From the NCBI GenBank assembly GCA_945872365.1, contig CAMBZJ010000009.1, forward strand, positions 1 to 64,000: 64,000 bases of DNA, written 5' to 3'. The number at the start of each line of letters is the position of its first letter. Position 1 is the first letter of the stretch. The notes under the pieces are model-generated. The model had not been told where the DNA came from. It searched no databases and worked only from the letters and a program-made list of their open reading frames with translations. Made by a program: the position numbers and the translations under genes. Positions 7,349 to 32,965 of this stretch are shown here, in pieces. Origin of the DNA: Klebsiella pneumoniae. GTDB taxonomy: Bacteria > Desulfobacterota > Binatia > UBA12015.

Positions 7349-7981
7349 TTGCGCGTTCTGGGAATCGATCCGGGGTCGCACGTGACGGGCTGGGGGCTCG
7401 TCGAGGCCGTGCCGGGCGGGGCTCGCCACGTAGCGTCGGGTGTTTCCATGCCGCGCTCGCGCGGCAGCGCCCGTCGGCTCGGCGAACTCGCCGATTCCCT
7501 CGACCGGCTGCTCGACGAGTGGCGCCCGGACGCGGTCGCGATGGAGCGCGCCTTCATGGGGCGCAACGCCATGAGTGCGCTCAAGCTCGGCGAGGTGCGC
7601 GGCGCCCTGCTCGCGGTTGCCGGCCGTCGCGGGATCGACGTCGTCGACTATCCGCCGGCGACGGTGAAGGTGGCCGTCGCGGGCAGCGGACGCGCCGAGA
7701 AGGGGGCGGTCGCGATCGGAGTGCGTCACATGCTCGGCGGCCGTCACGAGGCCGGCGACTCGACCGATGCGCTCGCGGTGGCTCTTTGTCACCTCCTGCA
7801 CGCGCGTCACCGACGGCGCATGGATCTCGCGGAGGACGTCGCCGGGCACGAAGTCGTCGCGCGTCGCGGGTTGCGCGTGTCGGCCGCGCGCCACGCCGTC
7901 CCTGCCGTGCCGGACACGCCTGTGCGGGCCGCCCTGCGCCTATCTGTGCGTCGGAGCGGGCGGGGAAACCGTCTCGCATGA
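7349..7981 (+). CDS. ruvC: Holliday junction endodeoxyribonuclease RuvC
   Basis: LRVLGIDPGSHVTGWGLVE...AMERAFMGRNAMSALKLGEVRGALL...DSTDALAVALCH; TTG start inferred; stop overlaps ruvA ATG. Confidence 0.92.
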   Translation: MRVLGIDPGSHVTGWGLVEAVPGGARHVASGVSMPRSRGSARRLGELADSLDRLLDEWRPDAVAMERAFMGRNAMSALKLGEVRGALLAVAGRRGIDVVDYPPATVKVAVAGSGRAEKGAVAIGVRHMLGGRHEAGDSTDALAVALCHLLHARHRRRMDLAEDVAGHEVVARRGLRVSAARHAVPAVPDTPVRAALRLSVRRSGRGNRLA

Positions 7982-8568
7982 TCGGAGCGCTCCGCGGGCG
8001 GATCGAGTCGAAGTCGCCGGGAGTCGTCCTGGTCGACGTCGGCGGCGTCGTCTACGAGGTCTCGGTGTCGCTCCAGTCGTTTGCTCGCATGCCCGACGAA
8101 GGCGCGGCGGTACGGCTCGACGTCGTGACGCACGTGCGCGAGGACGCGTTCGTGCTCTTCGGCTTCCTCGACCGGGACGAGAAGGAGATGTTCCACTGGC
8201 TCCAGACGGTGAGCGGCGTCGGCCCGCGCCTCGCGCTGAACATCCTCTCCGGCATGCCCGCCCGCGACCTGCGCGGCGCGCTCGCCTCGGGTGACGTCGC
8301 CCGGCTCACCCGCCTGCCCGGGATCGGCCGCAAGACCTCGGAGCGGCTGATCCTCGAGCTTCGCGAGCGCTGCCAGCGTGCGGAGTCTGCGGCCCTCGAC
8401 GCGCCGGGGGCTGCACCCGAGACTGTCGGTCGCGACGAGGAGGCGGTCTCGGCGCTCGTCAATCTGGGCTACAAGCGGGCCGACGCCGAGAAGGTGCTGC
8501 GCGACATCGCACCCGACGTCAGGCTCGAGGATGCGATCCGAGAGGCGCTGCGGAGGTTCGCGCGATGA
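7978..8568 (+). CDS. ruvA: Holliday junction DNA helicase subunit RuvA
   Basis: [28 protein letters not shown]...[13 protein letters not shown]...[17 protein letters not shown]. Confidence 0.97.
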
Positions 8569-9605
8569 GCCAGCCGCGCGACCCCGCGAGCCCGGTCTCA
8601 GTGCAGGCCGGCGAGGACGAGGTCCGTTTCGAGGCGTCGCTGCGCCCCGAGAGTCTCGACGACTACGTCGGCCAGGACGCGGTTCGCAACCAGTTGCGGG
8701 TTTCCATCGCCGCGGCGCGCGAGCGTGGCGATCCGCTCGACCACGTCCTATTCAGCGGTCCACCGGGTCTCGGCAAGACATCGCTCGCGCAGATCCTCGC
8801 CCGCGAAATGGGCGTGCAGTGCCGCAAGACGCAGGGTCCGGCGATCGAACGCGGCGGAGACCTCGCAGCACTACTCTCGGACCTCGACCGCGGCGACGTG
8901 CTCTTCATCGACGAGATCCACGCGCTGCCGCGCAAGGTCGAGGAGATCCTCTACCCGGCGATGGAGGACTTCGAACTCGACCTGATCGTCGGACAGGGGC
9001 CGACCGCGCGCAGCATGCGACTCGCACTCAAGCCGTTCACGCTGGTCGGGGCGACGACCCGCGCCGGCATGCTGAACGCGCCGCTGCGCGACCGCTTCGG
9101 TACCGCCTTCCGGCTCGAGTACTACCGCAGTGAACAACTCGCCCGTATCCTCGCGCGATCCGCGCGCATCCTCGACTTGCAACTCTCGGTGGAGGGGGCC
9201 GACGAGATCGCGCGTCGTTCGCGCGGCACGCCACGCATCGCGAACCGCCATCTCAAGTGGGTTCGCGATTTCGCCCAGGTCCACCACCCCGGCAAGCCGG
9301 TCGACGCGGCGATCGCCTCTTGGGCCCTCGAACAAAACCGGGTCGATCCGGTCGGGCTCGAGCCGATGGACCATGCGATCCTGCTCGCGGTACTCGACCG
9401 CTTCGGGGGCGGACCGGTGGGCGTCGACAGCCTGGCGGCCCTGCTCGGCGAGGAGCGCGAGACGATCGAGGGGGTGTACGAACCCTTCCTGGTCCAGTCG
9501 GGGTACCTCGAGCGGACCCCCCGCGGGAGAATGGCCACCGATCTGGCCTACCGGCACTTCGGTCGGGAGGTACCGGTAGGCTCCCGGCAGGGCCGCCTGC
9601 TATGA
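8565..9605 (+). CDS. ruvB: Holliday junction DNA helicase RuvB
   Basis: [22 protein letters not shown]...[11 protein letters not shown]...[11 protein letters not shown]...[18 protein letters not shown]. Confidence 0.98.
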
Positions 9606-9820
9606 GGGATGGCATGGGACCTCTCCTGATCCGCATCGGCCTCCTCGTCGCCGCGATCGGCGTCGTCTTCGTCGTGACCGGCAAGCTCGGAGTCCCGCTC
9701 GGCCGCCTGCCGGGCGACATCGCCATCGAGCGTCCCGGTTTCTCGTTCTACTTCCCGATCACGACGTCGATCCTGGTGAGCGTGGTCCTCTCGGCGATCT
9801 TCTACCTGCTGCGACGCTGA
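9602..9820 (+). CDS. DUF2905-family small membrane protein
   Basis: [67 protein letters not shown]. Confidence 0.88.
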
Positions 9821-9841
9821 GCGAGCGGGGTCCGGAGCGAG

Positions 9842-12241
9842 ATGCGGGACGCGGACGCGTCGCAGCGGAATTCCGGGGCCTCGTCCTCGCCCGCAGGTCC
9901 GGATGCGTCCGAGTCACGCGCCTCGGACGCCAGGGTGGGCCGCGAGGAATCCTCGGCCGTCGAGCCGGTCGGGATGTCCGTCGCGGAGGACGACGCGGAA
10001 GAACGCTCCCGCCCGTTTCGTCGTCGCGAACTCGTCCTGCTCGCTGCGACCGCGCTCGCCGTAGCACTCTTCCTGCTCTTCGAGACGCGGCTGCCGCCGT
10101 TCAGCAGCGCCCAGACGCTCTCACAGAACATCGTCTTCTTCCTCCTCATCAACCTGAACATCGTCCTCATCCTCTTGGTCGTGTTCCTGCTCGGCCGCAA
10201 CATCGTGAAACTCGTCGTCGAGCGGCGGCAAAGGGTCCTGGGTTCGCACCTGCGCACCCGTCTTGTCGGCGGGTTCGTCGCGGTGGCGATCGCACCGGCG
10301 ATCTTCCTGTTCCTCGTCGCGCTCGGCTTCATACGGACCTCGATCGAGAGCTGGTTCTCGGTGCAGGTCGAGAGTGCGCTCGAAGGCTCCCTCGACATGG
10401 CCGACGCGTACTACCGGGAGTCGATGGCGGGGGCGCTGCACGAGGCGCAGATGCTCGCCGGCCGTCTGTCCGGGCCGCGGCGGCGAGAGGCCGAGGCGCT
10501 CCTCGTCGCGGAAAAGCAGGTCGAATGGAACGCAGCCGCGATCTCGGTGTACGACTCGGCCCTAGCGCCGGTCGCCACCGCTTCGGCGACCGGACTCGCA
10601 GACGGGTTTCGCAAGCCGCCCGACCGGGCGTTTCTCGAACGGGTTCGCGACGAGCGCGAGGTCTCCGCCCGCCTCGATGTCGCGGGCGGAGATCTCTTGC
10701 GCGCTGGCGCACGGATCGACGCCCCGGACGGCTCGCTGCGCGGGGTCGTGATCGTCGACGAGGTGGTTCCCGGGAGCGTCGTGCGGCGTCGCGACGAGAT
10801 CGAACAGAGCTTCCGGCAGTACAAACAGCTGAAGCTCCTGCGGCGTCCGATCATCAACAACTACGTCCTGACGCTGCTCCTGGCCTCGCTCGTCGTGGTC
10901 TTCGGCGGCACCTGGCTCGGCTTCACGCTCGCACGCAGCATCACCGGACCAATCCAACGCCTCGCCGAAGGGGCCCGGCGGGTGGCGGCCGGGAACCTGG
11001 AGGAGACGATTCCCCCGGGTGGCGGGAGCGACGAACTCTCCGCGCTCGTCGTCGACTTTAATCGCATGACCACCAACCTGCGTTCGACACGCGAGGAACT
11101 CGTCGAGCGCAGCCGGACGCTCGAGGCGATCCTCGGCGACATCTCGGCGGGCGTCCTCTCGATCGACCCTCATGGATGCATCGACACGGTGAACCCGGTC
11201 GCCCGCACCCTGCTCGGGATCGACGCCCGCGTGCGTGGCCGACCGTTCCGCGAGGTCTTCGCGGCACAGCGCTTCGCCTGGGTGAGGGAACTGCTGCTCG
11301 CGCTCGAAGCACGTTCCCGCGACGGGGTGCTGGACCGTCTCCCGGCGCAGCGCTTCTCGGTCGAGTACGACGACGAAGGTGCACTCGAGATCGTTGCGAG
11401 CGGGGTCGTGCTGCGCGGCGCATCGGGCCAGGCGATCGGGGCGCTGCTGTTCTTCGAGGACGTGACCGAACTACTCGCGGTGCAGCGCATGGAGGCCTGG
11501 CGCGAGGTCGCCCGGCGGATCGCGCACGAGATCAAGAACCCGCTCACGCCGATCCAGCTCTCGGCCCAGCGCCTGCGCAAGCGCTATGCGGCGATTCCCG
11601 ACGGGGCCGTTCTCGACGAGTGCACCCGGACGATCATTGCGCAGGTCGAGGTGCTCAAGAACCTGGTCGGCGAGTTCGCGCACTTCGCCCGGCTCCCCAG
11701 GGGTGCGCGCGTGCCGACGGATCTGAACGCCCTCGTCGAGGAGGTACTGGTCCTCTTCCGCGAGGCGCGCCCGGACGTTCGCTTCTCCTTCCGTCGCGAT
11801 ACGGGGCTGCCGCTCCTCGACGTCGATCGGGACGGCATTCGCCGGGTGCTGACGAACCTTCTCGACAATGCCGTCGCGGCAGTGCTCGGACCGGGGCGCC
11901 CTGCCGGGGTCGGCCCCGCGGACGGAGGAGGTGCCCCCGGTGAACCGCGTGGCACGGTCGAGATCCTCACCCGCCACTCACCGGACCGCGACGTGGTGCT
12001 GCTCGAGCTCGCCGACGACGGCGTCGGCATGACCCCGGAGGTCAAGGCGCGACTCTTCGAGCCCTATTTCTCGACGAAGCCCGATGGCACCGGCCTTGGC
12101 CTCGCGATCGTCTCGGCCGTGCTGGCCGACCACCAGGCCTTCGTGCGGGTGCGCGACAACCAGCCGCGCGGGAGCCGGTTCGCGATCGAGTTCCCGGTCC
12201 GCCAGCGAGCGGCCGGGTTCGCCGCGACGCTCCCGGCCTGA
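9842..12241 (+). CDS. NtrY-like membrane sensor histidine kinase (TM region, HAMP, PAS, HisKA, HATPase_c)
   Basis: N-terminal TM segments; LARSITGPIQRLAEGARRVAAGNLE (HAMP); EVARRIAHEIKNPLTPIQLSAQRL (H-box); LTNLLDNAVAAV (N-box); DDGVGMTPE...GTGLGLAIV. Confidence 0.93.
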   Translation: MRDADASQRNSGASSSPAGPDASESRASDARVGREESSAVEPVGMSVAEDDAEERSRPFRRRELVLLAATALAVALFLLFETRLPPFSSAQTLSQNIVFFLLINLNIVLILLVVFLLGRNIVKLVVERRQRVLGSHLRTRLVGGFVAVAIAPAIFLFLVALGFIRTSIESWFSVQVESALEGSLDMADAYYRESMAGALHEAQMLAGRLSGPRRREAEALLVAEKQVEWNAAAISVYDSALAPVATASATGLADGFRKPPDRAFLERVRDEREVSARLDVAGGDLLRAGARIDAPDGSLRGVVIVDEVVPGSVVRRRDEIEQSFRQYKQLKLLRRPIINNYVLTLLLASLVVVFGGTWLGFTLARSITGPIQRLAEGARRVAAGNLEETIPPGGGSDELSALVVDFNRMTTNLRSTREELVERSRTLEAILGDISAGVLSIDPHGCIDTVNPVARTLLGIDARVRGRPFREVFAAQRFAWVRELLLALEARSRDGVLDRLPAQRFSVEYDDEGALEIVASGVVLRGASGQAIGALLFFEDVTELLAVQRMEAWREVARRIAHEIKNPLTPIQLSAQRLRKRYAAIPDGAVLDECTRTIIAQVEVLKNLVGEFAHFARLPRGARVPTDLNALVEEVLVLFREARPDVRFSFRRDTGLPLLDVDRDGIRRVLTNLLDNAVAAVLGPGRPAGVGPADGGGAPGEPRGTVEILTRHSPDRDVVLLELADDGVGMTPEVKARLFEPYFSTKPDGTGLGLAIVSAVLADHQAFVRVRDNQPRGSRFAIEFPVRQRAAGFAATLPA

Positions 12242-12287
12242 ACCCGGGGCGGGGCGTCCCGCCGGCTTTCATGCTACGAGGCATCGC

Positions 12288-13568
12288 GTGAACACGGGCT
12301 CCCGACGGATCCTCGTCGTCGACGACGAGGACGAGATACGCCAGAGTCTGCGCGGCGTCCTCTCCGACGAGGGCTTCACGGTAGAGGAGGCGGGCGACGG
12401 GCGGCGTGCCTTCGAGATGCTGAGCGCGTCGCGCCCGGACCTGGTCATCCTCGACGTCTGGCTTCCCGAGATCGACGGGATCGCCCTGCTCGAGCAGATC
12501 AAGGCGCGTCATCCGGATCTCCCGGTCGTCATCATCTGCGGGCATGCGAACATCGAGGCAGCCGTGCGAGCGACGCGGCTCGGCGCGGCGGACTTCATCG
12601 AGAAGCCGTTTTCCATCGAGGCACTTCTGGGCTCAATCGAACGTGCCCTCGGTGCGCCCAACCAGCCGGTGCAGTCGGCCTCGGAAGCGATCCCGGCGCC
12701 GGGGCCGCGGAGTGGCAATCACGTTGCTCCCGCCCGGCTTCTTCCCCAGCGCACGATCGGCCGCAGCGTGGTTGCGAGCGGGCACGGGCTCCACTCGGGC
12801 GTGAAGACCGGCGTCATTCTGCACCCGATGCCGCCGGGCAGCGGCATTCTCTTCCAGAGCCTCGCGACCGAGAAGAGTGTTCCCGCGCGCGTGGAATTCG
12901 CGGATTCGACCGGTTATGCGACCACCTTGTTTCGCTCGGGCTTCGGCGCCAAGACGGTGGAACACCTGCTCGCGACCCTCCAGGGTTACGGGGTGAGCAA
13001 CCTGCTCGTGAAGATGGAAGGCGAGGTTCCGGCACTCGACGGCTCGGCTCTTGAGTTCTGCCGACTGCTCGAGGAGGCCGGCGTGGTCGAGCAGCCCGGG
13101 GCCCCGGTCGAGGTCTATGCCGTCGAGCGGATGATGGAGGTCGGCGAGAAGGGCAGCCGCCTCGTCATCGAACCCTACGACGGCTTCGCGGTCGATTACA
13201 CGCTCGACTATCCCCAGCCGGTTGGCGTGCAGCACTACGTCTACGAGCATCGCGGCCCGGAATCATTCCGCGACGAGATCGCACCGGCCCGCACGTTCGG
13301 CTTCGTACATGAATTCACGCAGCTCGCCGCGGCTGGGCTCGCCGCCGGGGGACGACTCGACAACTGCGTCCTCATCGGGGAGGACGGTGTCATCAACGGA
13401 GAGTTGCGCTTCGCGAACGAGTTCGTGCGCCACAAGATCCTCGATGTGATGGGCGATTTCGCATTGCTCGGCCAGCCGATCTGCGGTCGGATCACGGCGC
13501 GGGCGACCGGCCATCGCCACAACGTCGCGATGGTGCGGCGCATGGTCGAGGTACGCTCGGCCTCCTGA
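12288..13568 (+). CDS. lpxC: Response-regulator receiver domain fused to UDP-3-O-acyl-GlcNAc deacetylase (REC-LpxC fusion)
   Basis: Single uninterrupted ORF (GTG start). N-term RRILVVDDEDEIRQSLRGVL...LVILDVWLPEIDG...AADFIEKPF (REC); C-term QRTIGRSVVASGHGLHSG...TVEHLLATLQGYG...ARTFGFVHE...EFVRHKILDVMGD...ATGHRHN (complete LpxC). Confidence 0.95.
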   Translation: MNTGSRRILVVDDEDEIRQSLRGVLSDEGFTVEEAGDGRRAFEMLSASRPDLVILDVWLPEIDGIALLEQIKARHPDLPVVIICGHANIEAAVRATRLGAADFIEKPFSIEALLGSIERALGAPNQPVQSASEAIPAPGPRSGNHVAPARLLPQRTIGRSVVASGHGLHSGVKTGVILHPMPPGSGILFQSLATEKSVPARVEFADSTGYATTLFRSGFGAKTVEHLLATLQGYGVSNLLVKMEGEVPALDGSALEFCRLLEEAGVVEQPGAPVEVYAVERMMEVGEKGSRLVIEPYDGFAVDYTLDYPQPVGVQHYVYEHRGPESFRDEIAPARTFGFVHEFTQLAAAGLAAGGRLDNCVLIGEDGVINGELRFANEFVRHKILDVMGDFALLGQPICGRITARATGHRHNVAMVRRMVEVRSAS

Positions 13569-13685: not shown

Positions 13686-14633
13686 CTAGCGCAGGAGCGG
13701 CGCCGCGAGCGTGCCCGTGAGCGTGTAGACAGGCTTCTCGCCCGGCGGCCGCTTGGGCAGGAGTGCGGTCACGATGCGCAAGGCGGGCGGTGCGTTGGGC
13801 GGAACGTCGATCGAGAGCTTGAGGTTGAGCGTGCTGAGCGCGACCGGCTCGCGCACTACGACGTCGCCGCTGCCCTCGACCGAAAGCTGGTCGCCACTCG
13901 CGCGCAATTCCTTCAACTGCAGGCGGGCGCCGTTCATCTGCGCGGCGATCGCGACGTCCCGGAAGGCGAGGTCGGGGACGGGGAAGCCGCGAACGACGAG
14001 TTCGTGGATCTCGAGTCCGCGGGCGTCGAGCCGTACGGTCCCCTCGGCGCTCTGGGTGGTGCGGCCGTCGCCGGCGAGGTCGAGTGCGAGATCTGCGCGA
14101 CCGGTGAAACGGGCGGGCGGCGGCAGCAGGGCGGCAAGAGCCCGCCCCAGGTCGGCCCCCGCGAGTGTGAGCTCGACGTGGGTCTTCGAGCCGCTGCGGG
14201 CCACATCGCCCGCGAGCGCCCCGTCCCAGACCCGTCCTTCGACGCTCCCGCTCTCGGGGTGGCCGAGCAGGAGTCCGGCGAGGGGTGTCCGGACGGTCGT
14301 CTCTTCGAATGCGATGGAGGAGCCGGGGGACTTCGGAGGGGTCAGGCGCAGGCCCTTCACCCGGTAGCCGTTGGGGAAGGCGAAGGAGACGTCGTCGAAG
14401 TCGATCGAGACGGGTGCCCCGGTGGTGCTCGTTTCGACCAGTCGGCGGGCGATCAGGTCGTGCGGCAGCGTGTAGGCGAGGCCGAGGAGGAAGGCGGCGA
14501 GCGTGAACAGCGCGTACCAGGGCCGCGAACCGAGGCGACCGCGCGGGACTCCGGGGCGGTCGCCGACACCCCCCGCGTTCGCGGGGGGCGGTGCATCGGC
14601 ACCACCGCGCAGGAAGCGCCCCGGGAGTTTCAC
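13686..14633 (-). CDS. gspN: Type II secretion system protein GspN
   Basis: GTG start overlapping gspM stop; single N-terminal TM then AFPNGYRVKGLRLTPP..., last gene of the gsp operon; GspN-like beta-rich periplasmic domain. Confidence 0.75.
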   Translation of the reverse strand: MKLPGRFLRGGADAPPPANAGGVGDRPGVPRGRLGSRPWYALFTLAAFLLGLAYTLPHDLIARRLVETSTTGAPVSIDFDDVSFAFPNGYRVKGLRLTPPKSPGSSIAFEETTVRTPLAGLLLGHPESGSVEGRVWDGALAGDVARSGSKTHVELTLAGADLGRALAALLPPPARFTGRADLALDLAGDGRTTQSAEGTVRLDARGLEIHELVVRGFPVPDLAFRDVAIAAQMNGARLQLKELRASGDQLSVEGSGDVVVREPVALSTLNLKLSIDVPPNAPPALRIVTALLPKRPPGEKPVYTLTGTLAAPLLR

Positions 14634-15223
14634 GACCCGCGCAGCCTCGACACGACCAGTGTCGCGTCCACGAGTTCGGGGTTCTTGTACTTGCGCTTGA
14701 AAGATACGCGGGCGAGATGCATCGGCTTGTCGCGTTGCTCGATCGCGTAGAGCAGGCTCACCAGCGACTTCATCTGAATGCCCTCGACCCGCATCTCCAC
14801 GGACTCCTCCGAGAGCTTGTCGCCGACGGTGCGGGTGGTCGGGTTCATCGCGGTGATCTTGTCCCGGCCGACGATCGGAACGGCGATCGACTCCAGCTGG
14901 GCGAAGGCCGAGTTGGCGCCCTGGGCGCCCGACATGGCTTCCTCCAGATGGGACACCTCGTCGCGCATCGTTCGGTAGCGGCCGGTCAACTCGCCCACGG
15001 TGACCGAATCGCGTCGCGCGGCGGCGAGTCCACGGTCGAGCCCGGCGAGGGCGTCGGTGATCGGCTCGGCGATTGCGAGCCAGGCAAAGAGGAGTGCGGC
15101 CACCGCGGCGGCGGCGAGCACCATGCGGCGCTCGCGCGGCTGCAAGCCCTCGAGCCATCCGGCGATCCGCCCCCGGGGGCCGGCTGCGAGTCGGGCGATC
15201 GCGCTGCGCAGATTCTCGATCAC
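14630..15223 (-). CDS. gspM: Type II secretion system protein GspM
   Basis: Short cytoplasmic N-term + one TM (RRMVLAAAAVAALLFAWLAI) + periplasmic domain; position between gspL and gspN. Confidence 0.75.
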   Translation of the reverse strand: MIENLRSAIARLAAGPRGRIAGWLEGLQPRERRMVLAAAAVAALLFAWLAIAEPITDALAGLDRGLAAARRDSVTVGELTGRYRTMRDEVSHLEEAMSGAQGANSAFAQLESIAVPIVGRDKITAMNPTTRTVGDKLSEESVEMRVEGIQMKSLVSLLYAIEQRDKPMHLARVSFKRKYKNPELVDATLVVSRLRGS

Positions 15224-16599
15224 GAGGCCTCCCCGTGTCCGAAATCCACCGAGGCCCGGAATTCGACACGTCCGTCGACGCCCGTCTTCACGTCCTTCAC
15301 ATCGGCGCCGTGCGCGCCGGGTAAGTCCTTCAGAGCGCGCTTGATCACGTCGACCGACTCGTAGCTGTCGGTCCGCGCATGCAGCCGCAGGCCCTCGGGG
15401 TCGAGCGTGAAGTCGTCGACCTCGAAGGGAATCCGCTCGGGGACCGCGGCCGCGATCGAGCGCATGATCTCGAGGACCGGTGGCCGGTCACCGGCCGCCC
15501 CGGTGAGGCTCTCGCGGCGCTTGGCGAGGGTGTCGATCGCCGCTTCGAGCTGGGTGCGCTCGCTGCCCGGGGCGGCCCCCGGGAGGACGCCGCTCACCTG
15601 GCGGGCGATCTCCGCGCGCAGCGCGGCGAGTTCCGCCCGCCGTGCGGCCACGATCGCTCCGAGGCTCGCGAGGGCGAGCAGTCCGGCGACCCCGGCGAGG
15701 ACCGCGGTCGAGCGGAGTTGGCGGCGGGCCTCCTCGCTGGGTGCGTGGTAGGCGAGGTCGCCGCCGCGCAGGTTCGTCCCGGTGCGCGCGACACCCGCGG
15801 CGCGTGCGGCCAGCGCGATGGCCCGCAGGTGTTCGAGTGGGGCCGAGGCGAGCCAGGCCGGCAGGTGGCGGTGCGGATCGGTCGGCCTCATGCCGGCTGC
15901 GAGCGCGATCTCGCGAGCCAGCGGGGCCCCGGGTCCGACCGCGGCGACCTCCGGGCGCTTCTCGCCGGCAATCGCGAGCAGGCCCCAGCGGATGCGGCGC
16001 CGCATCTCGTCGTCGCCGCCGCGGTCCCCGGCGTCGAGTGCATGGAGGGCCGCCAGATGGTCGTCCTGGAGCAGGGCGACCGCACCGTCCTCGCGCGCCT
16101 CCACGACCAGCAGGTCGAGGGCACGCTCGAAGAGTCCGGCGGTCGCCACGGCACCGATGTCGACGATCGCGGGGTCGAGCCCGGCGGTGCGTAAATCGTG
16201 AAGGTGCGCGCGCACCGCCTCGCGTGGGGCGATCGCCGCGAGCACGGTCGTCCCGCCGTTCGAGCGATCCAGTGGCGCGAACGAGGTGATCGCCGTCGAG
16301 AGTTCGAAGGGCACCAGGCTCTCGAGCTCGAAGGGTACGGTGGCGGCGAGCCGCGCCTGGTCGGCGAAGGGAAGACGGAGCAGGCGGAAGGTGGCCTGCC
16401 GACCCGGAAGCGCGGTCGCGACCGCATCGGGACTCGACTTGCAGTGCGTGGCGACACAGGCGCGCAACTGCTCGGAAAGTCCCATGGACGGGTCGCGTGG
16501 CTCGCGCCACGACCCGACGAGTCGAGGCGCACGGCCGGCCACCTCGACGAGGGCGAGGGACACGGCATCCTCCCCGGGATCGACTCCGAGCGCGAGCAT
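15220..16599 (-). CDS. gspL: Type II secretion system protein GspL (actin-like cytoplasmic domain)
   Basis: MLALGVDPGEDAVSLALVEVAG...; PilM/GspL-like fold, one TM (STAVLAGVAGLLALASLGAIVA), ferredoxin-like C-term. Confidence 0.8.
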   Translation of the reverse strand: MLALGVDPGEDAVSLALVEVAGRAPRLVGSWREPRDPSMGLSEQLRACVATHCKSSPDAVATALPGRQATFRLLRLPFADQARLAATVPFELESLVPFELSTAITSFAPLDRSNGGTTVLAAIAPREAVRAHLHDLRTAGLDPAIVDIGAVATAGLFERALDLLVVEAREDGAVALLQDDHLAALHALDAGDRGGDDEMRRRIRWGLLAIAGEKRPEVAAVGPGAPLAREIALAAGMRPTDPHRHLPAWLASAPLEHLRAIALAARAAGVARTGTNLRGGDLAYHAPSEEARRQLRSTAVLAGVAGLLALASLGAIVAARRAELAALRAEIARQVSGVLPGAAPGSERTQLEAAIDTLAKRRESLTGAAGDRPPVLEIMRSIAAAVPERIPFEVDDFTLDPEGLRLHARTDSYESVDVIKRALKDLPGAHGADVKDVKTGVDGRVEFRASVDFGHGEAS

Positions 16600-16603
16600 C
16601 GCT

Positions 16604-17518
16604 TCAGGGTACCCCCGGAGGGGCCAGGTCGGAAACCGGCCGCTCTCGCCAGGCGATCCGGGTCGCCCGGCGGGCATCCCGCCGGACGATCGCGGTCACC
16701 CCCTGGGTGAGGTCTCCCACCGTCCCGCTGGCGACGATCGAGAACACGCTGCTCTTGATCCGGATCATGCTGCGCGCGTCGCCTTCCGGGCATGCCTCCA
16801 CGTCGCGCGTCTGCTCGAAGCCACCGGGGGGGACGCGGAAGTCCGCTCCCACGTCGCAGCCGATCGCGCGCAGCACGAGCGGGTCGGCGGTGTTCACGTT
16901 GACGCCGACGCTCGCGCCGCGCTCGCCGTAGGCGGTCACGTAGGGACGCAGTCGCTGCATGGTGCGGTCGTCGAAGCCGCGCAGGAGTCGCAACTCCTCG
17001 ACCGTGGAGAGAGGGGCGTGCCGCGCGACGCAGGCCGGCAGCGAGCAGAAGGACTCCGCTGTCGCACCGGCAGGGGTACCGGGTGGTTCGGTCCATGCGA
17101 CGATCTCGTCGAGCAGCGCCCGGTCGAGGTCGAGTTCGTCGAAGAGCTTCTCGAGGGCCGCACGCATCCGCTTGTCGCGGACCTGATTCAGGTCGAGCTT
17201 GCCGTCCTCGTCGGTGATCTTGAGACCGACCGTGCCGTCGCCTGCTGGCACGACGATCGGCATCGCCCACAGGCCGTCGGGTGCGGTCACCGACGGGTTC
17301 TTCTTCGCGTCGTCGATGAGCAGGGCCTCGCCGGCGACCACGGCTGAGCGCGCGAGGAGCTGGGCCGCGATCGCGTTGCCGGCATTGCGGCCCAAATGCG
17401 TGTGGACCATCGCCGTGTCGGCGAGCTCGACCACGATGACCGTCAGCAGGGTCACCGCGAGCAGGGCGGAGAGCAGGGCGAGGCCGCGCTCGCGGCCGTG
17501 TGCCGGGTGGCGCCTCAA
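16604..17518 (-). CDS. gspK: Type II secretion system minor pseudopilin GspK
   Basis: GLALLSALLAVTLLTVIVVELADTAMVHTHL N-term; DEDGKLDLNQ, VNVNTADPLVLRAI motifs of GspK; TTG start overlapping gspJ stop. Confidence 0.88.
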   Translation of the reverse strand: MRRHPAHGRERGLALLSALLAVTLLTVIVVELADTAMVHTHLGRNAGNAIAAQLLARSAVVAGEALLIDDAKKNPSVTAPDGLWAMPIVVPAGDGTVGLKITDEDGKLDLNQVRDKRMRAALEKLFDELDLDRALLDEIVAWTEPPGTPAGATAESFCSLPACVARHAPLSTVEELRLLRGFDDRTMQRLRPYVTAYGERGASVGVNVNTADPLVLRAIGCDVGADFRVPPGGFEQTRDVEACPEGDARSMIRIKSSVFSIVASGTVGDLTQGVTAIVRRDARRATRIAWRERPVSDLAPPGVP

Positions 17519-18177
17519 CTGCGCGGTCCGAGCGGCAGCGTCACCGCGAGGCGGTAGGGGCTCGAGGTGCGGTCGCCCTCGTCGACCCCGATCTCGAATT
17601 CGACCGCGCGTGGCAGGTCCTCGGGCTTGCCGGTCTCGCCGCCGCTCCAGGTGGTCGCCCAGTCCGGCGTGCGTGTCGGCAGGACGCGCACCTGGAATGA
17701 CTTCACCCCCGAAAGCACGACGGCTTGCGCGGGCGGGGTGCCATCGGGTGCGACCGAGGCGAGCTGCTCCTTGACCAGGCGCCCGGAGCGTTCGCCCGCC
17801 ACGGGGGGATCGAGCCGGTAGCGGACGACCTCGATCGGGTCGCGTGGGCCCGCGCCGAGGCGCTGTGCCGACGTCGTGGTGAAGGAGATCTCGCTCGACG
17901 GTCGGTCGAGCGTGCGGTCGGACACGCTGAAGCGACGACCGCGCAGCGCGACCGCGCCGGTCACTTCCTCGGCCATCCGACCGAGCGCGATTCGGGCCGA
18001 GGTCGTCTGCTCGAGCACCTCTTCCGCGCGGTCGCGGGCCTCGATCGCGAGCCGGAACGGCGCCGCCTGCGCGATCGCGATGATCGCCGCGATCGAGAGC
18101 GCGACCAGCAACTCGAGCAGGGTGAGCCCCGCCTCGGTCCGCCGGTCGTGCGGGGGCCGCCCGCAAGCCGTCGTCAC
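17515..18177 (-). CDS. gspJ: Type II secretion system minor pseudopilin GspJ
   Basis: AGLTLLELLVALSIAAIIAI prepilin N-term; RYRLDPP; operon position. Confidence 0.85.
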   Translation of the reverse strand: MTTACGRPPHDRRTEAGLTLLELLVALSIAAIIAIAQAAPFRLAIEARDRAEEVLEQTTSARIALGRMAEEVTGAVALRGRRFSVSDRTLDRPSSEISFTTTSAQRLGAGPRDPIEVVRYRLDPPVAGERSGRLVKEQLASVAPDGTPPAQAVVLSGVKSFQVRVLPTRTPDWATTWSGGETGKPEDLPRAVEFEIGVDEGDRTSSPYRLAVTLPLGPRS

Positions 18178-18581
18178 GAGCTGCCCCCGCGCAGGAAGAA
18201 GGTCAGTTGCGCCGCGGCTCCGGGTTGCTCCGCCGGAACCACGCGGATGCGGATCTCGCGCGTCTCGGGCAGGGGCGTGTCGTTGACCTCGCGCTCCCAG
18301 GAGTAGCCCGAGTCCTGCCCGGGATGGCGCTCCTCGAAGTCCCCGTTGGACTGTCCGACCTCGGGTAGTCCGCCGAGTTCGGTCTCGGTGACGAGCGTCC
18401 GGGCGAGCAGCAGGGCGCGGGTGTAGGCGCGCTCGCGTGCGACCAGGTTCAGGCTGCGCACGTGCAGTCCGAGCATCGCCGTGAAGGCGATGGCGAGCAC
18501 CGCCATCGCGACCACGACTTCGAGTAACGTGAAGCCCTTGGCCGACGGCCCGCGGGTGCGCTGCGCCTTTCGTGGTCTCAT
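18174..18581 (-). CDS. gspI: Type II secretion system minor pseudopilin GspI
   Basis: AKGFTLLEVVVAMAVLAIAF prepilin N-term; operon position. Confidence 0.85.
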   Translation of the reverse strand: MRPRKAQRTRGPSAKGFTLLEVVVAMAVLAIAFTAMLGLHVRSLNLVARERAYTRALLLARTLVTETELGGLPEVGQSNGDFEERHPGQDSGYSWEREVNDTPLPETREIRIRVVPAEQPGAAAQLTFFLRGGSS

Positions 18582-19132
18582 CGCGAGACCAGGTCCCGGG
18601 CGTCGATCCGCCCTTCGATGACGCGGGGCCGCGAGGTCGCAGGTTCGATCGCGATCGTGAAGGCCCGGCCAGTACCGTCGTCGAGGTGAAGCACGGCCGG
18701 GTCGGCATAGCCATCGGGCGAAAAGAGGGTCGCCGGGAGCCCCTCGGCGGTGGCGACGATGCCCGGCCCCGCGATGTCGATCGCGATCGAGTCGGGCAGG
18801 CGCGTCGCGCGATAGAGCGGCGCATCGTCGTCGACGAAGCGAGCCCCGGCCGTCCCTTCGACGAGGACGGTGCCACGGTAGGTGCCGCGCGAGGGATCGA
18901 CGACCAGGCGGACCCATCGGCCGCGCAGGGCCGCATCCTCTCGCAGGAAGCGGATGTGTTGCGCGAGCTTGCGCGTGCTCGCGTCGAGCGAGACGCCGCG
19001 CAGCGCCGAGAGGCGCGGCACGACAAGTGTGGCGAGCAGTCCAATGAGGGCGAGCGTCGTCAGGATCTCGATGAGCGTGAAGCCGGCGGCCTCGGCGCAG
19101 GCGGCCCCCGGGGGCTGCGACGCCGCTCGCAT
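18578..19132 (-). CDS. gspH: Type II secretion system minor pseudopilin GspH
   Basis: AAGFTLIEILTTLALIGLLATLVVPRL prepilin N-term; GspH-like C-domain. Confidence 0.85.
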   Translation of the reverse strand: MRAASQPPGAACAEAAGFTLIEILTTLALIGLLATLVVPRLSALRGVSLDASTRKLAQHIRFLREDAALRGRWVRLVVDPSRGTYRGTVLVEGTAGARFVDDDAPLYRATRLPDSIAIDIAGPGIVATAEGLPATLFSPDGYADPAVLHLDDGTGRAFTIAIEPATSRPRVIEGRIDARDLVSR

Positions 19133-19209
19133 GTGCGAAGCGAGCGACCGCGGGCGACGGGCCGTTGGCTCGCCGCCCGGTCGCTCGCTCGCCGGGGCGG
19201 AGGGAAGGG

Positions 19210-19695
19210 TCACAGCTTCCGCGAGTCGATGTCCGCGTTCTTGCCTTCGCCGCCCTCCACGCCGTCGGCGCCGAAGGACAGGATCGAGAAGTTGTTGCCG
19301 TCGCTGCGAAAGACATAGCCCTGTCCCCAAGGGTCGACCGGCAGCTTCTCGAGGTAGCCGTCGGCGTTCCAGCGCCGCGCGGGCGGACCGGAGGTCGGCG
19401 GTGAAACCAGCGCCTGCAGGCCCTGCTCGGTCGTCGGGAAGCCGCCGTTGTCGAGCTTGTAGAGTGAGAGGGCCTGCTCGATCGACTTGATGTCGGCGGC
19501 CGCTTTGGTCTGGCGTGCCTCGTCGGTGCGACCGAGGATCCGCGGCGCCACGAGCGTGATGAGCAGCCCGAGGATGAAGACGACGACCATGATCTCGATC
19601 AGCGTGAAGCCCGCCGCCGAACGCAGCGGCCTCGGGGGCGTGCTGGCGAAGCGTCGCCGCGCGGTCGCGGGGAGGGAAAGGGCTCGGGTGTGCAT
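19210..19695 (-). CDS. gspG: Type II secretion system major pseudopilin GspG
   Basis: AAGFTLIEIMVVVFILGLLITLVAPRILGRTDEARQTKAAADIKSIEQALSLYKLDNGGFPTTEQGLQALV...WGQGYVF. Confidence 0.97.
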   Translation of the reverse strand: MHTRALSLPATARRRFASTPPRPLRSAAGFTLIEIMVVVFILGLLITLVAPRILGRTDEARQTKAAADIKSIEQALSLYKLDNGGFPTTEQGLQALVSPPTSGPPARRWNADGYLEKLPVDPWGQGYVFRSDGNNFSILSFGADGVEGGEGKNADIDSRKL

Positions 19696-19705
19696 GGCGT
19701 GTCTC

Positions 19706-20911
19706 CTAGCGTACGAGGGCATTGATCTCGAAGATCGGCAGCAGGATCGCGAGTACGATGAAGAGGACGACGCCTCCCATGACCACGATCAGGATCGGCT
19801 CGAGCACCGCGGTCGCGGTCGTGAGCGTCCCCTCGATCTCCTGTTCGTAGGCGATGGCCGCCTTGTCCAGCATCGATTCCAGCTCGCCCGAACGCTCGCC
19901 GACCGCGATCATGTGGATGAGCAGCGGCGGGAACAGCCCGGACTCCTTGAGCGGGCCGGCGAGTCCCTGACCCTCGCGGATCGCCGCGCGGGCCTGCCCG
20001 ACGGCATCGGTGAGCGCGAGGTTGCCGGTGACCTCGCCCGCGACGTCGAGAGCCGGCAGGAGGGCGATGCCGTTGGCGAGCAGGGTCGAGAGCGTGCGCG
20101 CGAAGCGCGCGACCGCGATCCGGGTCGCGACCGGTCCGACCACCGGCATCGTGAGCAGCTTGCGGTCGAGCCACAGGCGTCCGGCGGGGCGCCGCAGGGT
20201 CGCCAGCAGGGTTCCGGTCGCGGCTGCGAGGAGCAGGACGATCAGCCACCACCCGTCGGAGACGGCGTTCGAGATGCCGAGAAGGATGCGCGTGAGCAGC
20301 GGGAGTGTCTGCTTCTGCTCGGCGAAGATCCGCGTCACGCGCGGCACGACGAAGCCCAGCAGGAAGCCGACGATGCCGAGCGACACGGCGGTCATGAGGA
20401 CCGGGTAGGCGAGTGCGCCGCGGACCTTGGCGCGCACCCGTGCCTGCGACTCGGTGTAGTTCGCGAGCCGGTCGAGGACCAGGTCGAGCGCGCCGGCGGC
20501 CTCGCCTGCGCGGACCATGCCCACGTAGAGCGTCGGAAAAACCGAGGGGTGGGCCGCCATCGCGTCGGCCAGCGACTGTCCCTGGGTGACCTGGTCGCGG
20601 ACGTGTGAGAGCACCCCGGCCATGGCCGGGCGCTCGGTCTGTTCGCTCACGGCGCCGAGCGCCTCGACGACCGGCATCCCGGCACCGACCAGTGTGCCGA
20701 GCTGGCGGGAGACCAGGGCCAGGTCCGCGGGCCGGACGCGGCCACCCGGTCGCCGGATCGCCGCTCCCCGGGCGCGCTCCTCGTCGATCGAGGTCGGAAA
20801 GACTCCGTCGCGGCGCAGCCGCATCCGCGCGCCGCGCGCGCTGTCGGCGTCGATCACGCCGCGCACCGCGCGCCCGTCGGCCGTGAGTCCGCGATAGGCG
20901 AAGACGGCCAT
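19706..20911 (-). CDS. gspF: Type II secretion system inner membrane protein GspF
   Basis: MAVFAYRGLTADGRAVRGVIDADSARGARMRLRRDGVFP...; T2SSF repeats. Confidence 0.97.
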   Translation of the reverse strand: MAVFAYRGLTADGRAVRGVIDADSARGARMRLRRDGVFPTSIDEERARGAAIRRPGGRVRPADLALVSRQLGTLVGAGMPVVEALGAVSEQTERPAMAGVLSHVRDQVTQGQSLADAMAAHPSVFPTLYVGMVRAGEAAGALDLVLDRLANYTESQARVRAKVRGALAYPVLMTAVSLGIVGFLLGFVVPRVTRIFAEQKQTLPLLTRILLGISNAVSDGWWLIVLLLAAATGTLLATLRRPAGRLWLDRKLLTMPVVGPVATRIAVARFARTLSTLLANGIALLPALDVAGEVTGNLALTDAVGQARAAIREGQGLAGPLKESGLFPPLLIHMIAVGERSGELESMLDKAAIAYEQEIEGTLTTATAVLEPILIVVMGGVVLFIVLAILLPIFEINALVR

Positions 20912-20929
20912 GGCGGTCAGGCCCGAAAC

Positions 20930-22558
<1,629 letters not shown>

Positions 22559-22571
22559 GGTAGGCGTGGGC

Positions 22572-25031
22572 CTAGTTCCCCGGCAGCAGGGTGTCGGCGC
22601 GGCCCTGGGCGCCCCCTTCGGCAGGCAGAAGGACCCCGCCGTCGATCGACTCGGGTGGCGGGAGCGGACGCCGCGGGGCGAGGGACCCATGGGTTCCCGC
22701 GAAGCGGCCGTGGCCGACCATCGCTTGGCGGAAGCGGGCCTTTTCGCCCTCGCTCGCCTGCAGCATCTGGTCGGGGTTGCGCACGATGTGCGGCGTCAGC
22801 AGGATGATGAGGTTCACCTTCTCCTTCTGCCGTTCCTCGTACTTGAACAGGTTGCCGATGACCGGGATGTCGGTCAGGTAGGGCACGCCGCTCGTCCCGG
22901 AGTCGAGTCGATCGGAGATCAGTCCGCCGATCGCCACCGTTTCGGAGTCGCGCACGACCACGTTGGTGGTCGCCGAGCGGACGGTCGTCGTTGGGCCGAG
23001 CTGGAGTACCTCGGAGAGCGGCGTCTTCACGAGGGCGGAAACCTCCTCGAAGAGGAGCAGCCGGACGGTGTCGCCCTCGGAGATCTGCGGGGTGAGTCGC
23101 AACGTGATGCCGACGTCCCGGCGGTCGATCTGGCTGAAGGTGTTCGAGAGGTTGGTCTCGTTCGTGGCACGACTGGTGACGAACGGGACGTTCTGGCCGA
23201 CGACGATCTCGGCTTCCTCGTTGTCTGTGGTGAGGATCGTCGGGGCCGAGAGGACGTTCACACCGGTCTCGTTCTCGAGCGCGGTCACGACCGCGACCTC
23301 GGCCGGGATCTCCGTGCCGTCGGCGAGCACGACCTTCTGCTTGCTGATCAGAGCACCGAGAAAGCCGCCGATCGTGCTCAGGCCGCCGGTATCCCCGGTG
23401 GTGATGGCGTTGTTCAGATTGGTGATGTTCTTGAGGTTCGTGCGACCGAGCGCCACGAGGTTACCCATCTGCGCGGCCCCCTGAAGCTCGATGCCGAGTT
23501 CCCTCGCGCGGGCCATCGAGACCTCGAAGATGATCGCCTCGACGAGCACCTGGCGTCGCGCGACGTCGAGCCGTTCGATGACGTCGCGCAGGATTGCATA
23601 GTCCTGGGGCGCCGCACTGATGACGAGAGAGTTCGTCGCCGGGTCGGCGGTGATGCGCACCCCGCTCTCGAACTCGATCGCCGGCGGTCCGCTGCCGGCC
23701 GAGGCGGAGCCCGAACCATAGGGGCTGCCGCCGCCGCCGCGCGAGCCGAAGTTGCCGCCGCCGCCCCCGAGACCGCCCCCCATGCCCCCGCCCATGCCGC
23801 CGCCGCCGCCCGAACCCTGCGCGCCGGAGCCGGCCTGCTGGTTGCTGATCACGCTGCGGGGGTAGTTCCCGAAACGACCCCCCCCCTGCGTGACCGAGCG
23901 CCCGGGGAGGTTCTCCCGACGCCCGCCGAACGCCGAACTCGTACCCACGAGGTCGGAGAGGACCGCGACCATATCGGCCGCGTTGGCATGGCGCAGCGAG
24001 TAGACGTTCACGCGCCCGCTGCCGCGCGGCAGCGGGCCGTCGAGCTTTGCGACTAGCGCCCGGGCATGCCGGATGTCGAGCGCACTGCCGATGACCACGA
24101 TCGCGTTCGAGCGATCGTCGGGAACCACGCGCAGGCCGCTGCCCTCGACCCTCGGTCCGGCCGGGACGCCCGCTGCTCCGCCGCCGATGCCGGGGATCGT
24201 GCTCGAGGTTCCCGGAGCGGAACCCCCGCCCGCGGCCCCGGCGGCGCGTGCCCGCCCATCCTCGATCGAGTCGCGCAGGATGCCGGCGAGGTCGTCGGCG
24301 TTGGCGTGGCGCAGCGGGATGACCTCGACCGACCGCTCCTGGCCGGGGACGTCGAGTTCCCGGATGAGGCGTGAGAGGCGCGATAGGTTCGCCGAGGAAT
24401 CGATGACGATCAGCGAATTGGTCGGCGCGTAGGCGCTGACCAGTCCGTCGCGCGACACCAGCGGCTGGAGGACCTGCGCGGCCTGCGCCGCCTCGAGGTG
24501 GCGCAGCGGGACGAGTCGCGTGACGAAGGTTTCGCTCGGGGCGTCGTTGTCGCGTTCGATCGGCAGCCCGGCGCCCTTCACGTCCTTGGTCGGGATGATC
24601 TTCACGACCGGCCCGGTATCCACCACCGAAAAGCCTTTCACCTGGAGCACCGATTGGAACACCCGGTAGGCCTCGTCGACGGTGATGCGCGTCGGCGATA
24701 CGACCGAGACCTTGCCGCGCACCTTGTCGTCGACCACGAAGTTCTTGCCGGTGATCTCGCTCACGAACTTGATGAGCGTCGGCAGCTCGACGTCCTGGAA
24801 GTCCATCATCACCAGGTCGTCGGGACGCAGCGGCCGAGGTGCATCGTCGGGCGCGACCTCCCGGGCCGCCGGAGCGGGCCGACCGTTCTCGCCCGCAGGA
24901 GCCTCCTCGGCGCCGGGTCGGGCGGCGGTCGCCAGCAGCCCCAGCCCGCCGAGCAGGGCGAAGGCGAGCAGGGGCGTGCGGCCCGGACGTGCGCGGCGCG
25001 TGGTGGGTCGTGGGGCGCGCGGTGTTCTCAT
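22572..25031 (-). CDS. gspD: Type II secretion system secretin GspD
   Basis: N0/N1 domains (VELPTLIKFVSEITGKNFVVDDKVRGKVSV...), secretin core VDIERLDVARRQVLVEAIIFEV..., VPYLTDIPVIGNLFKY. Confidence 0.97.
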   Translation of the reverse strand: MRTPRAPRPTTRRARPGRTPLLAFALLGGLGLLATAARPGAEEAPAGENGRPAPAAREVAPDDAPRPLRPDDLVMMDFQDVELPTLIKFVSEITGKNFVVDDKVRGKVSVVSPTRITVDEAYRVFQSVLQVKGFSVVDTGPVVKIIPTKDVKGAGLPIERDNDAPSETFVTRLVPLRHLEAAQAAQVLQPLVSRDGLVSAYAPTNSLIVIDSSANLSRLSRLIRELDVPGQERSVEVIPLRHANADDLAGILRDSIEDGRARAAGAAGGGSAPGTSSTIPGIGGGAAGVPAGPRVEGSGLRVVPDDRSNAIVVIGSALDIRHARALVAKLDGPLPRGSGRVNVYSLRHANAADMVAVLSDLVGTSSAFGGRRENLPGRSVTQGGGRFGNYPRSVISNQQAGSGAQGSGGGGGMGGGMGGGLGGGGGNFGSRGGGGSPYGSGSASAGSGPPAIEFESGVRITADPATNSLVISAAPQDYAILRDVIERLDVARRQVLVEAIIFEVSMARARELGIELQGAAQMGNLVALGRTNLKNITNLNNAITTGDTGGLSTIGGFLGALISKQKVVLADGTEIPAEVAVVTALENETGVNVLSAPTILTTDNEEAEIVVGQNVPFVTSRATNETNLSNTFSQIDRRDVGITLRLTPQISEGDTVRLLLFEEVSALVKTPLSEVLQLGPTTTVRSATTNVVVRDSETVAIGGLISDRLDSGTSGVPYLTDIPVIGNLFKYEERQKEKVNLIILLTPHIVRNPDQMLQASEGEKARFRQAMVGHGRFAGTHGSLAPRRPLPPPESIDGGVLLPAEGGAQGRADTLLPGN

Positions 25032-25966
25032 CGGATCTCGTAGGTCAGGGTACGCGTCTCGCTGCCGCGCATCACGTCGACCGAGAGCTTGGTCTGCCCC
25101 TGCAGTTCTTGGAGCACGGCCATGGCCCGCGTCGGGTCGTTCAGGTCGATGCCGTTCACCCTCTGCACCACGTCGTTATTCTCCAGGCCGATCTTCTGGA
25201 ATAGGCTGCCGCGCTTGATCGCGAAGACCTTGAAGCCGTTGGTGCGTCCGCCTTCCTGATTGGGCACGGCACGCAGCTGGGTGATCAGGTCCGAGAGGTT
25301 GGCGAGGGACTCGTCGACCTCCGACTGGGCCACGAGGTAGCGGTCATCGCCGATCTTCTTCACCTGGTCGTCCGAGATGCCCCCGGGCGATACGGCCGGC
25401 GTGGCGATCGGCGCGAGGTGCGAGGCGTCGGTGATGGTCGCGGCAGGTGGATCGTCGACGGCCAGCAGCTCGTCCGCGCCGGCGCGCTGGAGGACGAGAC
25501 TTCGCCAGCCGATCCGCGAGACCTTGCCCCCGCCGAGGGAGTCCCCCGGAGACACGACCAACTGCTTGTGGGCCACGAGATCCTCGACGATCGCGAAGCG
25601 CTGGCCACCTCGCCGGCCGGTGCCGACGAGGCGCAGGGACGCCGGGGCGGTGGCGAGCGGCCCCGTGACGGCCGCCGGGCCATCGCTCGCCGGTGGGGCG
25701 GCGAAGACGTTGCGGCGGGTCATCGCCTGGTAATCCGAGAGCGGCCGTGCCGGCGCCGGCCGGGTCTCCGGGGACGTCGCGGTCCGTACCGGGCGCCCGG
25801 CGAGGGAGAGCCGGCTGCGCGCGAGGCTGGACACCAGCATGGCGGCGGAAACCGCCGCGAGTGCGAGCAGGACGAGCCGCGACGCAGCCCAGTGCGCCGG
25901 GCGGATCCGGGTGATCACTCCTTGGACGCCTATGCCAACCCCTGCTGAGGCGCAAGCGCGCGCCAT
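25028..25966 (-). CDS. gspC: Type II secretion system protein GspC with C-terminal PDZ domain (start uncertain: 25966 ATG or 25918 GTG)
   Basis: TM + HR domain (LRLVGTGRRGGQRFAIVEDL) and PDZ-like GSLFQKIGLENNDVVQRVNGIDLNDPTRAM; first gene of gsp operon. Confidence 0.88.
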   Translation of the reverse strand: MARACASAGVGIGVQGVITRIRPAHWAASRLVLLALAAVSAAMLVSSLARSRLSLAGRPVRTATSPETRPAPARPLSDYQAMTRRNVFAAPPASDGPAAVTGPLATAPASLRLVGTGRRGGQRFAIVEDLVAHKQLVVSPGDSLGGGKVSRIGWRSLVLQRAGADELLAVDDPPAATITDASHLAPIATPAVSPGGISDDQVKKIGDDRYLVAQSEVDESLANLSDLITQLRAVPNQEGGRTNGFKVFAIKRGSLFQKIGLENNDVVQRVNGIDLNDPTRAMAVLQELQGQTKLSVDVMRGSETRTLTYEIR

Positions 25967-27612: not shown

Positions 27613-27652
27613 CGGACGCCCGCGAATCCGGCGCGTGAGCGGGCTCTCCTCG

Positions 27653-28915: not shown

Positions 28916-28924
28916 GGCGCGCGA

Positions 28925-29623
28925 GTGGCTGGAAAGGGAGAGGGGGGCATGCCTTACGTCGACGCGCGCGGGCTGGTGAAGGAATTCACCGACGGTCCGC
29001 GCACGGTGCGGGTGCTCTCCGGGGTGGACTTCGGCATCGCCGCGGGGGAGACGGTCGCGATCGTGGGTGAATCCGGAGTCGGCAAGAGCACTTTGCTGCA
29101 CCTGCTCGGTGGCCTCGAGAGGCCGACCGCCGGCAGCGTCGCGATCGGTGGCGTCGACCTCGCGGAGCAGAACGAACGCGAGCTCGCCCGTTTTCGCAAC
29201 CGAGAGATCGGCTTCGTCTTCCAGTTTCACCATCTCCTGCCGGACTTCACGGCGCTCGAGAACGTCGCGATGCCCGACCTGATCGCCGGCGAGTCGCAGG
29301 CTGTTGCCCACGAGCGCGCGTCGGCCGTGCTCGAGCGCGTGGGGCTCGCCGAGCGGATGACCCACCGCCCGGGAGAACTCTCCGGCGGCGAGCAGCAGCG
29401 GGTCGCGGTCGCCCGGGCCGTGGTACGCAAGCCGGGGCTCGTCCTCGCCGACGAACCCACCGGCAACCTCGACCCCGACACCGGCGACGAGGTCGAGCGC
29501 CTCCTGCTCGACCTCAATCGCGAGAACGGCACCACCTGCATCGTCGTCACCCACAGTGCCCGGCTCGCGGCAGCGATGGACACGCGTTTCCGTCTGGTAC
29601 ACGGACATCTCGAGGCCGTATGA
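28925..29623 (+). CDS. lolD: Lipoprotein-releasing ABC transporter ATPase LolD
   Basis: GESGVGKSTLLHLLGGLERPT, FVFQFHHLLPDFTALENVAMP, LSGGEQQRVAVARAV; directly after lolC/E. Confidence 0.95.
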   Translation: MAGKGEGGMPYVDARGLVKEFTDGPRTVRVLSGVDFGIAAGETVAIVGESGVGKSTLLHLLGGLERPTAGSVAIGGVDLAEQNERELARFRNREIGFVFQFHHLLPDFTALENVAMPDLIAGESQAVAHERASAVLERVGLAERMTHRPGELSGGEQQRVAVARAVVRKPGLVLADEPTGNLDPDTGDEVERLLLDLNRENGTTCIVVTHSARLAAAMDTRFRLVHGHLEAV

Positions 29624-32943: not shown

Positions 32944-32965
32944 GGACGGAGCCGCCGGGAGCGTC

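Follow-up and report, generated by a model that had tools for sequence, protein, structure and literature searches.

The lpxC gene in the stretch of DNA analysed here (the window, 64,000 nucleotides) is fused to a response regulator receiver domain, such that one frame encodes an NtrX-type receiver, a linker, and a complete LpxC. LpxC commits the cell to the synthesis of lipid A, the outer-membrane anchor of LPS. LPS synthesis is governed mainly at this step, and the enzyme is also an antibiotic target; its known control operates through proteolysis, protein partners, and transcription. Judging from sequence, we consider it likely that in this protein LpxC is under the control of the NtrX receiver, with NtrY, encoded directly upstream, as the probable kinase; a membrane sensor would then probably control LPS synthesis directly and not via gene expression. 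If true, the built-in receiver would provide direct, fast, sensor-driven control of outer-membrane synthesis.

The fusion frame starts with GTG at 12288 and ends with TGA at 13566-13568, without an internal stop, and encodes 426 aa, which bears out the original prediction that REC and LpxC share a single uninterrupted frame. The motifs quoted in that prediction (VVDDEDE, LVILDVW, FIEKP, TVEHL, FVRHKILDVMGD, and TGHRHN) are likewise all found in the protein. The Pfam matches span residues 8-117 for Response_reg (110 bits, E 8e-32) and 154-420 for LpxC (270 bits, E 2.3e-80). Because both matches are far above cut-off, chance similarity of either domain (E 2e-80 for LpxC, 8e-32 for the receiver) is ruled out. 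The linker, originally put at ~45 aa, is shorter, about 22-28 aa (residues ~123-150, of which 124-145 are predicted to be disordered). The AlphaFold model that had been proposed as a check shows both domains well folded (mean pLDDT 90.8), with residues 124-145 disordered. Its pTM of 0.88, versus 0.73 for a Brachyspira fusion, hints weakly that the window protein may have a defined domain arrangement, although this difference does not establish docking.

As a member of the LpxC family the C-terminal half is unambiguous: it scores 270 bits against PF03331 (cut-off 27 bits) and 223 bits against TIGR00325 (cut-off 187 bits), and its predicted fold matches LpxC crystal structures (Foldseek). Equivalents of E. 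coli E78, H79, T191, H238, D242, D246, and H265 are all present (Table 1). The fusion is the sole LpxC match in the window genome, which is 97% complete, and this makes deacetylase activity of the fusion likely.

Table 1. Features of the fusion gene and of the genes upstream of it in the window
Feature	Position	Strand	Remarks
ruvA, ruvB, small membrane protein	7978..9820	+	upstream of ntrY, same direction
NtrY-type membrane histidine kinase, 799 aa	9842..12241	+	NtrY_N, HAMP, PAS, HisKA, HATPase_c
Phospho-donor His562, HEIKNP H-box of kinase	11525..11527	+	
REC-LpxC fusion gene	12288..13568	+	426 aa; genome's only LpxC
NtrX-type receiver domain, residues 7-123	12306..12656	+	PF00072; NF051870; nearest structures 4d6x/5m7n
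Acidic pair D12-D13	12321..12326	+	in fused receivers, D13 105/105; D12 102/105, E in 3
Phospho-acceptor Asp56	12453..12455	+	kept in 105/105 fused receivers
Cys84 at Ser/Thr switch position	12537..12539	+	C in window and L002-L004; S/T in other 101
Lys106	12603..12605	+	kept in 105/105 fused receivers
Disordered Ala/Pro-rich linker, drifting	12657..12737	+	residues 124-150; pLDDT <50 at 124-145
Complete LpxC domain, residues 151-426, short C-terminal tail	12738..13565	+	PF03331, TIGR00325, fold match
Glu225-His226	12960..12965	+	E. coli E78 general base, H79 Zn ligand
Thr336	13293..13295	+	E. coli T191
His382...Asp386 Zn ligands	13431..13445	+	E. coli H238, D242
His409	13512..13514	+	E. coli H265

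The receiver half is closest to NtrX both by profile and by solved structure, with a margin of about 15 bits or more. Its best NCBIfam receiver model is that of NtrX (NF051870, 134.7 bits, residues 7-123, matching the receiver part only), and the nearest solved receivers are chains 4d6x (108.8 bits) and 5m7n (104.7 bits), the next best scoring 88. (We take these two to be Brucella NtrX; their PDB titles read just 'Fis family protein' and 'Nitrogen assimilation regulatory protein'.) A true NtrX consists of REC, AAA+, and a Fis-type HTH and reaches the NF051870 cut-off of 600 bits; at 134.7 bits, from the receiver only, the window protein is NtrX-derived, not NtrX. Nor is it a sigma-54 activator (bEBP), as it lacks the AAA+ domain, with its GAFTGA loop, that such activators have. 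Of the residues expected in a response regulator, the acidic pair, the phospho-acceptor Asp, and the Lys are present; the Ser/Thr switch residue is replaced by Cys84. This substitution may weaken canonical signalling in the window's family, which counts against the main reading. (The switch Cys, within a CGHA motif, occurs in every sampled member of that family, i.e. the window, L002-L004, L245-L247, and L249-L253, and is absent from all other sampled lineages, which have Ser/Thr.)

The candidate kinase, which the original prediction had not mentioned, lies 46 nt upstream of the fusion in the same direction. All five of its domains score above their Pfam cut-offs, and a TM scan finds four hydrophobic transmembrane segments. 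The order ruvA-ruvB-small protein-ntrY-REC-lpxC is common to the window, L003, and L004, and the same 64 kb encode a BamA-like Omp85 protein, a FabZ-LpxA frame, and LpxK, so that more of the lipid A pathway lies close by. In the proposed mechanism, the membrane-embedded envelope sensor NtrY would autophosphorylate at His562 and, as the putative donor, transfer its phosphoryl group to Asp56 in the receiver, which would alter LpxC output. By analogy with CheB, the unphosphorylated receiver would restrain LpxC and phosphorylation would free it; whether phosphorylation relieves inhibition or imposes it is nearly an even call, tipping only slightly toward relief. The question of which envelope signal NtrY responds to would become testable by a simple enzyme assay. 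One could suppose instead that the receiver chiefly acts on NtrY, as a sink for phosphate or as a feedback input, and that LpxC is a passenger and another NtrC-family regulator handles transcription. Several such regulators are encoded in the genome, but the best of them scores 388 bits against NtrX, short of the cut-off of 600 bits, and this scheme, which we regard as improbable, leaves unexplained why the fusion is retained as the sole LpxC across whole lineages.

The fusion is characteristic of the window's class. To survey the distribution, whole genomes were searched for LpxC family matches and the surrounding open frame was measured; in Binatia it reaches at least 410 aa for 131 of 139 matches, and LpxC elsewhere in the phylum is mostly ordinary (280-390 aa). 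A receiver is present in 29 of 30 fetched Binatia loci, the exception being an additional LpxC copy, whose genome has a 433-aa frame as well. Among 24 further loci from additional families, 22 carry receiver and LpxC in one frame; the two exceptions are a locus truncated where its contig ends and L251 (G300:C100), in which one in-frame TGA interrupts the LpxC part of the fusion, by sequencing error or in a pseudogene. The receiver was confirmed in every sampled Binatia family, and an NtrY-type kinase is encoded no more than ~140 nt upstream in every class locus with upstream sequence (28/28 and 22/22), sets in which a few genomes are the same as L003-L005. An assembly chimera is ruled out by the recurrence of the fusion in many independent assemblies, including L002-L004 at 84%, 75%, and 68% protein identity, and in class members assembled as a single contig (G336:C1, G256:C1). 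A second, canonical LpxC was also sought and was found neither in the window genome nor in 18/18 fusion-bearing genomes.

Outside Binatia the fusion takes a long and a short form. Of the 65 LpxC matches in Nitrospinota, 63 have frames of at least 460 aa, mostly 670-800 aa, in which Pfam recognises REC, a sigma-54-type AAA+ domain, the AAA+ lid, sometimes HTH_8, and then LpxC. The long form is also present in 17 of 39 genomes of a class that contains the Syntrophaceae and in 12 of 16 genomes of another class of Thermodesulfobacteriota. Among 86 Spirochaetota genomes with an LpxC, 27, those of Brachyspira and its relatives, have frames of 427-452 aa, with the receiver of the short REC-LpxC form confirmed in the fetched Brachyspira-type loci; this form is found, too, in nearly all of the class around SZUA-149 and in a few Acidobacteriota (L007, L217, L219). 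The fusion is the only LpxC in all 18 fusion-bearing genomes. Entire lineages, the cultured genus Brachyspira among them, have fixed this architecture; far from an isolated oddity, it is ancient, lineage-wide, and derived from NtrX. (Other long LpxC frames of Acidobacteriota, L214-L216, L218, and L220-L223, were left out, as no receiver was found in them; they are 420-706 aa long, Pfam finds LpxC only in L214, L222, and L223, and the extra length may be non-coding or hold unknown domains. Nitrospira, L029 and others, was rejected as well, the receiver match there being a separate gene near lpxC.)

Against the main reading, no kinase was found adjoining the fusion in Brachyspira, in most sampled Nitrospinota, or in the SZUA-149 class. 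These orphan fusions also bear on one of the two main rivals, according to which the receiver is a tether: by docking on NtrY it would hold LpxC at the inner membrane, and phosphorylation would either release or retain the enzyme. The adjoining NtrY is indeed a multi-pass membrane kinase, and localisation of LpxC to the inner membrane by Ght in Neisseria has been proposed to be regulatory (PMC12444477). Nevertheless, we judge tethering unlikely, as the orphan fusions have no adjacent NtrY and as the idea by itself leaves unexplained why the phosphorylation residues are invariant.

A tree of 99 LpxC domains (a quick search with no receiver columns and no bootstrap, unrooted) contains one branch with all 63 fused sequences on one side and all 36 unfused ones on the other (SH-aLRT 99). 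Because all fused LpxCs fall on one side of this branch, a single fusion event, spread by transfer or by deep descent, is likely and is the simplest reading. A tree of the receiver had too few columns, and it did not resolve the order of events. The arrangement that apparently preceded the fusion is seen in Desulfuromonadales-type loci (L026, L033, L041, L057), where an unfused lpxC is followed by an NtrY kinase and then by an NtrX-type regulator with an intact GAFTGA loop. (In L026 this lpxC-ntrY-ntrX cluster, which is conserved, lies at 7956-12706.) A similar order, with GAFTGA missing, is found in three Desulfobacterales loci. In such a history, lpxC-ntrY-ntrX, with NtrX a sigma-54 activator, would have become ntrY followed by ntrX-lpxC by fusion, and the fused NtrX would then have lost sigma-54 contact and often HTH and AAA+, to yield REC-LpxC.

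Forms that fit such a course have survived. REC-AAA+-HTH-LpxC is present in L010, REC-AAA+-LpxC without a recognisable HTH in L019 and L020, and REC-LpxC within Nitrospinota itself in L163 and L164; L166 (716-2257), with REC, a borderline Fis-type HTH, and LpxC but no AAA+, looks like a step on the way to losing the NtrX domains. All 39 AAA+-bearing fusions lack GAFTGA, while their Walker A motif is mostly kept. The absence of GAFTGA from the three unfused NtrX proteins near lpxC means, however, that this loss is not specific to the fusion, which counts against the main reading. The Fis-type HTH kept in L010 and L011, and borderline in L166, might suggest that full-length fusions are still DNA-binding repressors in which LpxC moonlights as a reporter of lipid A flux. 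We hold this to be quite improbable: the idea is inapplicable to the window protein and to other HTH-less fusions, and the sigma-54 contact motif is gone in all fusions. The series preserved here is that of a transcription factor which sheds its DNA-side output and retains its switch.

D13, D56, and K106 are invariant in 105 of 105 fused receivers, the LpxC catalytic residues are intact, and dN/dS between the window and L002 is 0.11 for the receiver, 0.10 for LpxC, and 0.82 for the linker; receiver and LpxC are under equal purifying selection and the linker drifts. We argue that the switch acts on LpxC chiefly because it has been kept while the transcription half has decayed. It is conceivable that the receiver is left over from the ancestor and does not affect LpxC, since fusions of neighbouring genes can be neutral and the AAA+ and HTH domains did erode. 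We give such neutrality very little credence, given that the receiver alone was spared, with three invariant residues and a dN/dS as low as that of the catalytic domain, next to a linker that is free to drift. The original claim of an unusual response regulator-LpxC fusion with probable direct control by phosphorylation is well supported by evolutionary evidence: the invariant phosphorylation site, the adjoining cognate-type kinase, the lost transcription output, and the purifying selection on the receiver.

The other main rival is control of stability, in which the phosphorylation state of the receiver decides LpxC proteolysis and replaces the C-terminal FtsH degron of E. coli. Almost all fused LpxCs lack a C-terminal tail: after H265 the median is 16 residues, versus 44 in unfused LpxCs, in a comparison whose sampled sequences are mutually related. 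The level of LpxC is, moreover, the classical control point (PMC12444477). Yet equally short tails occur in some unfused, receiver-less LpxCs (L180, L181, L184-L189), the degron is missing in Alphaproteobacteria as well (PMC12444477), and no protease link was found, so that we consider this explanation possible but doubtful. For direct control as a general principle our confidence is a little above the midpoint: lipid A synthesis would be a direct output of a two-component phosphorelay in Binatia, Nitrospinota, and Brachyspira and relatives, a sigma-54-type transcription factor having turned into an allosteric biosynthetic enzyme via preserved intermediates, and the switch Cys of the window's family may add a redox or altered-lifetime input.

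Several known systems invite comparison. CheB, a response regulator with an enzymatic output, has a receiver-linker-enzyme layout; the fusion has the same layout, and by this analogy phosphorylation would be expected to act on the enzyme. The known enzymatic outputs of response regulators are mostly signalling or modification enzymes, whereas the output of the fusion, LpxC, is a committed biosynthetic enzyme. With NtrX of the NtrYX system the fusion shares the receiver type, the position of its gene after an NtrY-type kinase, and long relatives with AAA+ and sometimes HTH; it differs in that the window protein has LpxC as its output in place of AAA+ and HTH, and in that GAFTGA is missing from the AAA+-bearing fusions. 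With an ordinary LpxC it has in common the complete domain, the Zn and catalytic residues, the fold, and its status as sole copy, but it is set apart by the N-terminal receiver, the short C-terminal tail, and a separate branch of the tree. We regard the fusion as a variant within the enzymatic-output response regulators, a lineage-wide LpxC of probably single origin under putative receiver control.

A link between two-component regulators and LpxC exists without any fusion. In Rhodobacter sphaeroides, deletion of NtrYX raises the lpxC transcript 8.8-fold and doubles LPS, and there is no NtrX site at lpxC (PMC7240162); in Caulobacter, NtrYX lowers lpxC transcription, according to a 2025 review of lipid A regulation (PMC12444477). 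The connection of NtrYX with the LpxC pathway is therefore there even without a fusion, which favours the main reading. In Desulfovibrio, the sole target of the response regulator DVU2934 is lpxC (PMC3333781). These cases resemble the present one in that the same sensor family, or a two-component regulator, acts on LpxC, but they involve separate proteins and transcriptional control (indirect in Rhodobacter). The only LpxC fusion that we found described in the open literature is the bifunctional LpxC-FabZ of Chlorobium and Bacteroidetes (PMC516016, PMC3087551); there, too, LpxC is joined to a functionally linked neighbour gene, although the partner is a metabolic enzyme and here it is a signalling receiver. 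No published description of REC-LpxC was found in the open literature, and it may be listed in subscription papers or domain databases. The text of the 2025 review contains neither 'receiver' nor 'fusion' (PMC12444477), and passages of the Brachyspira genome paper that list lpxC do so without comment (PMC2650404).

Some further features were observed in passing. Matches to the LapB Zn-ribbon model, which occur even in Bacillus, lie mostly in frames of ~430-530 aa and are probably a different protein with a similar Zn ribbon, e.g. RadA. In the window, Type II secretion genes F, E, and D (Pfam) are found at 13686-25175 on the minus strand, where other frames are T2SS-like by eye. On the plus strand, 27527-32370 encodes an FtsX/MacB-type (LolE-like) permease and the BamA-like Omp85 protein, which has 5 POTRA repeats; this region precedes the FabZ-LpxA frame and forms an outer-membrane biogenesis island without lpxC. 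The latter frame (32903-34231, plus strand) encodes a FabZ-type dehydratase (residues 32-163) and then LpxA, with its hexapeptides and C-terminal domain, and is apparently a FabZ-LpxA fusion, the second fusion in the lipid A pathway.
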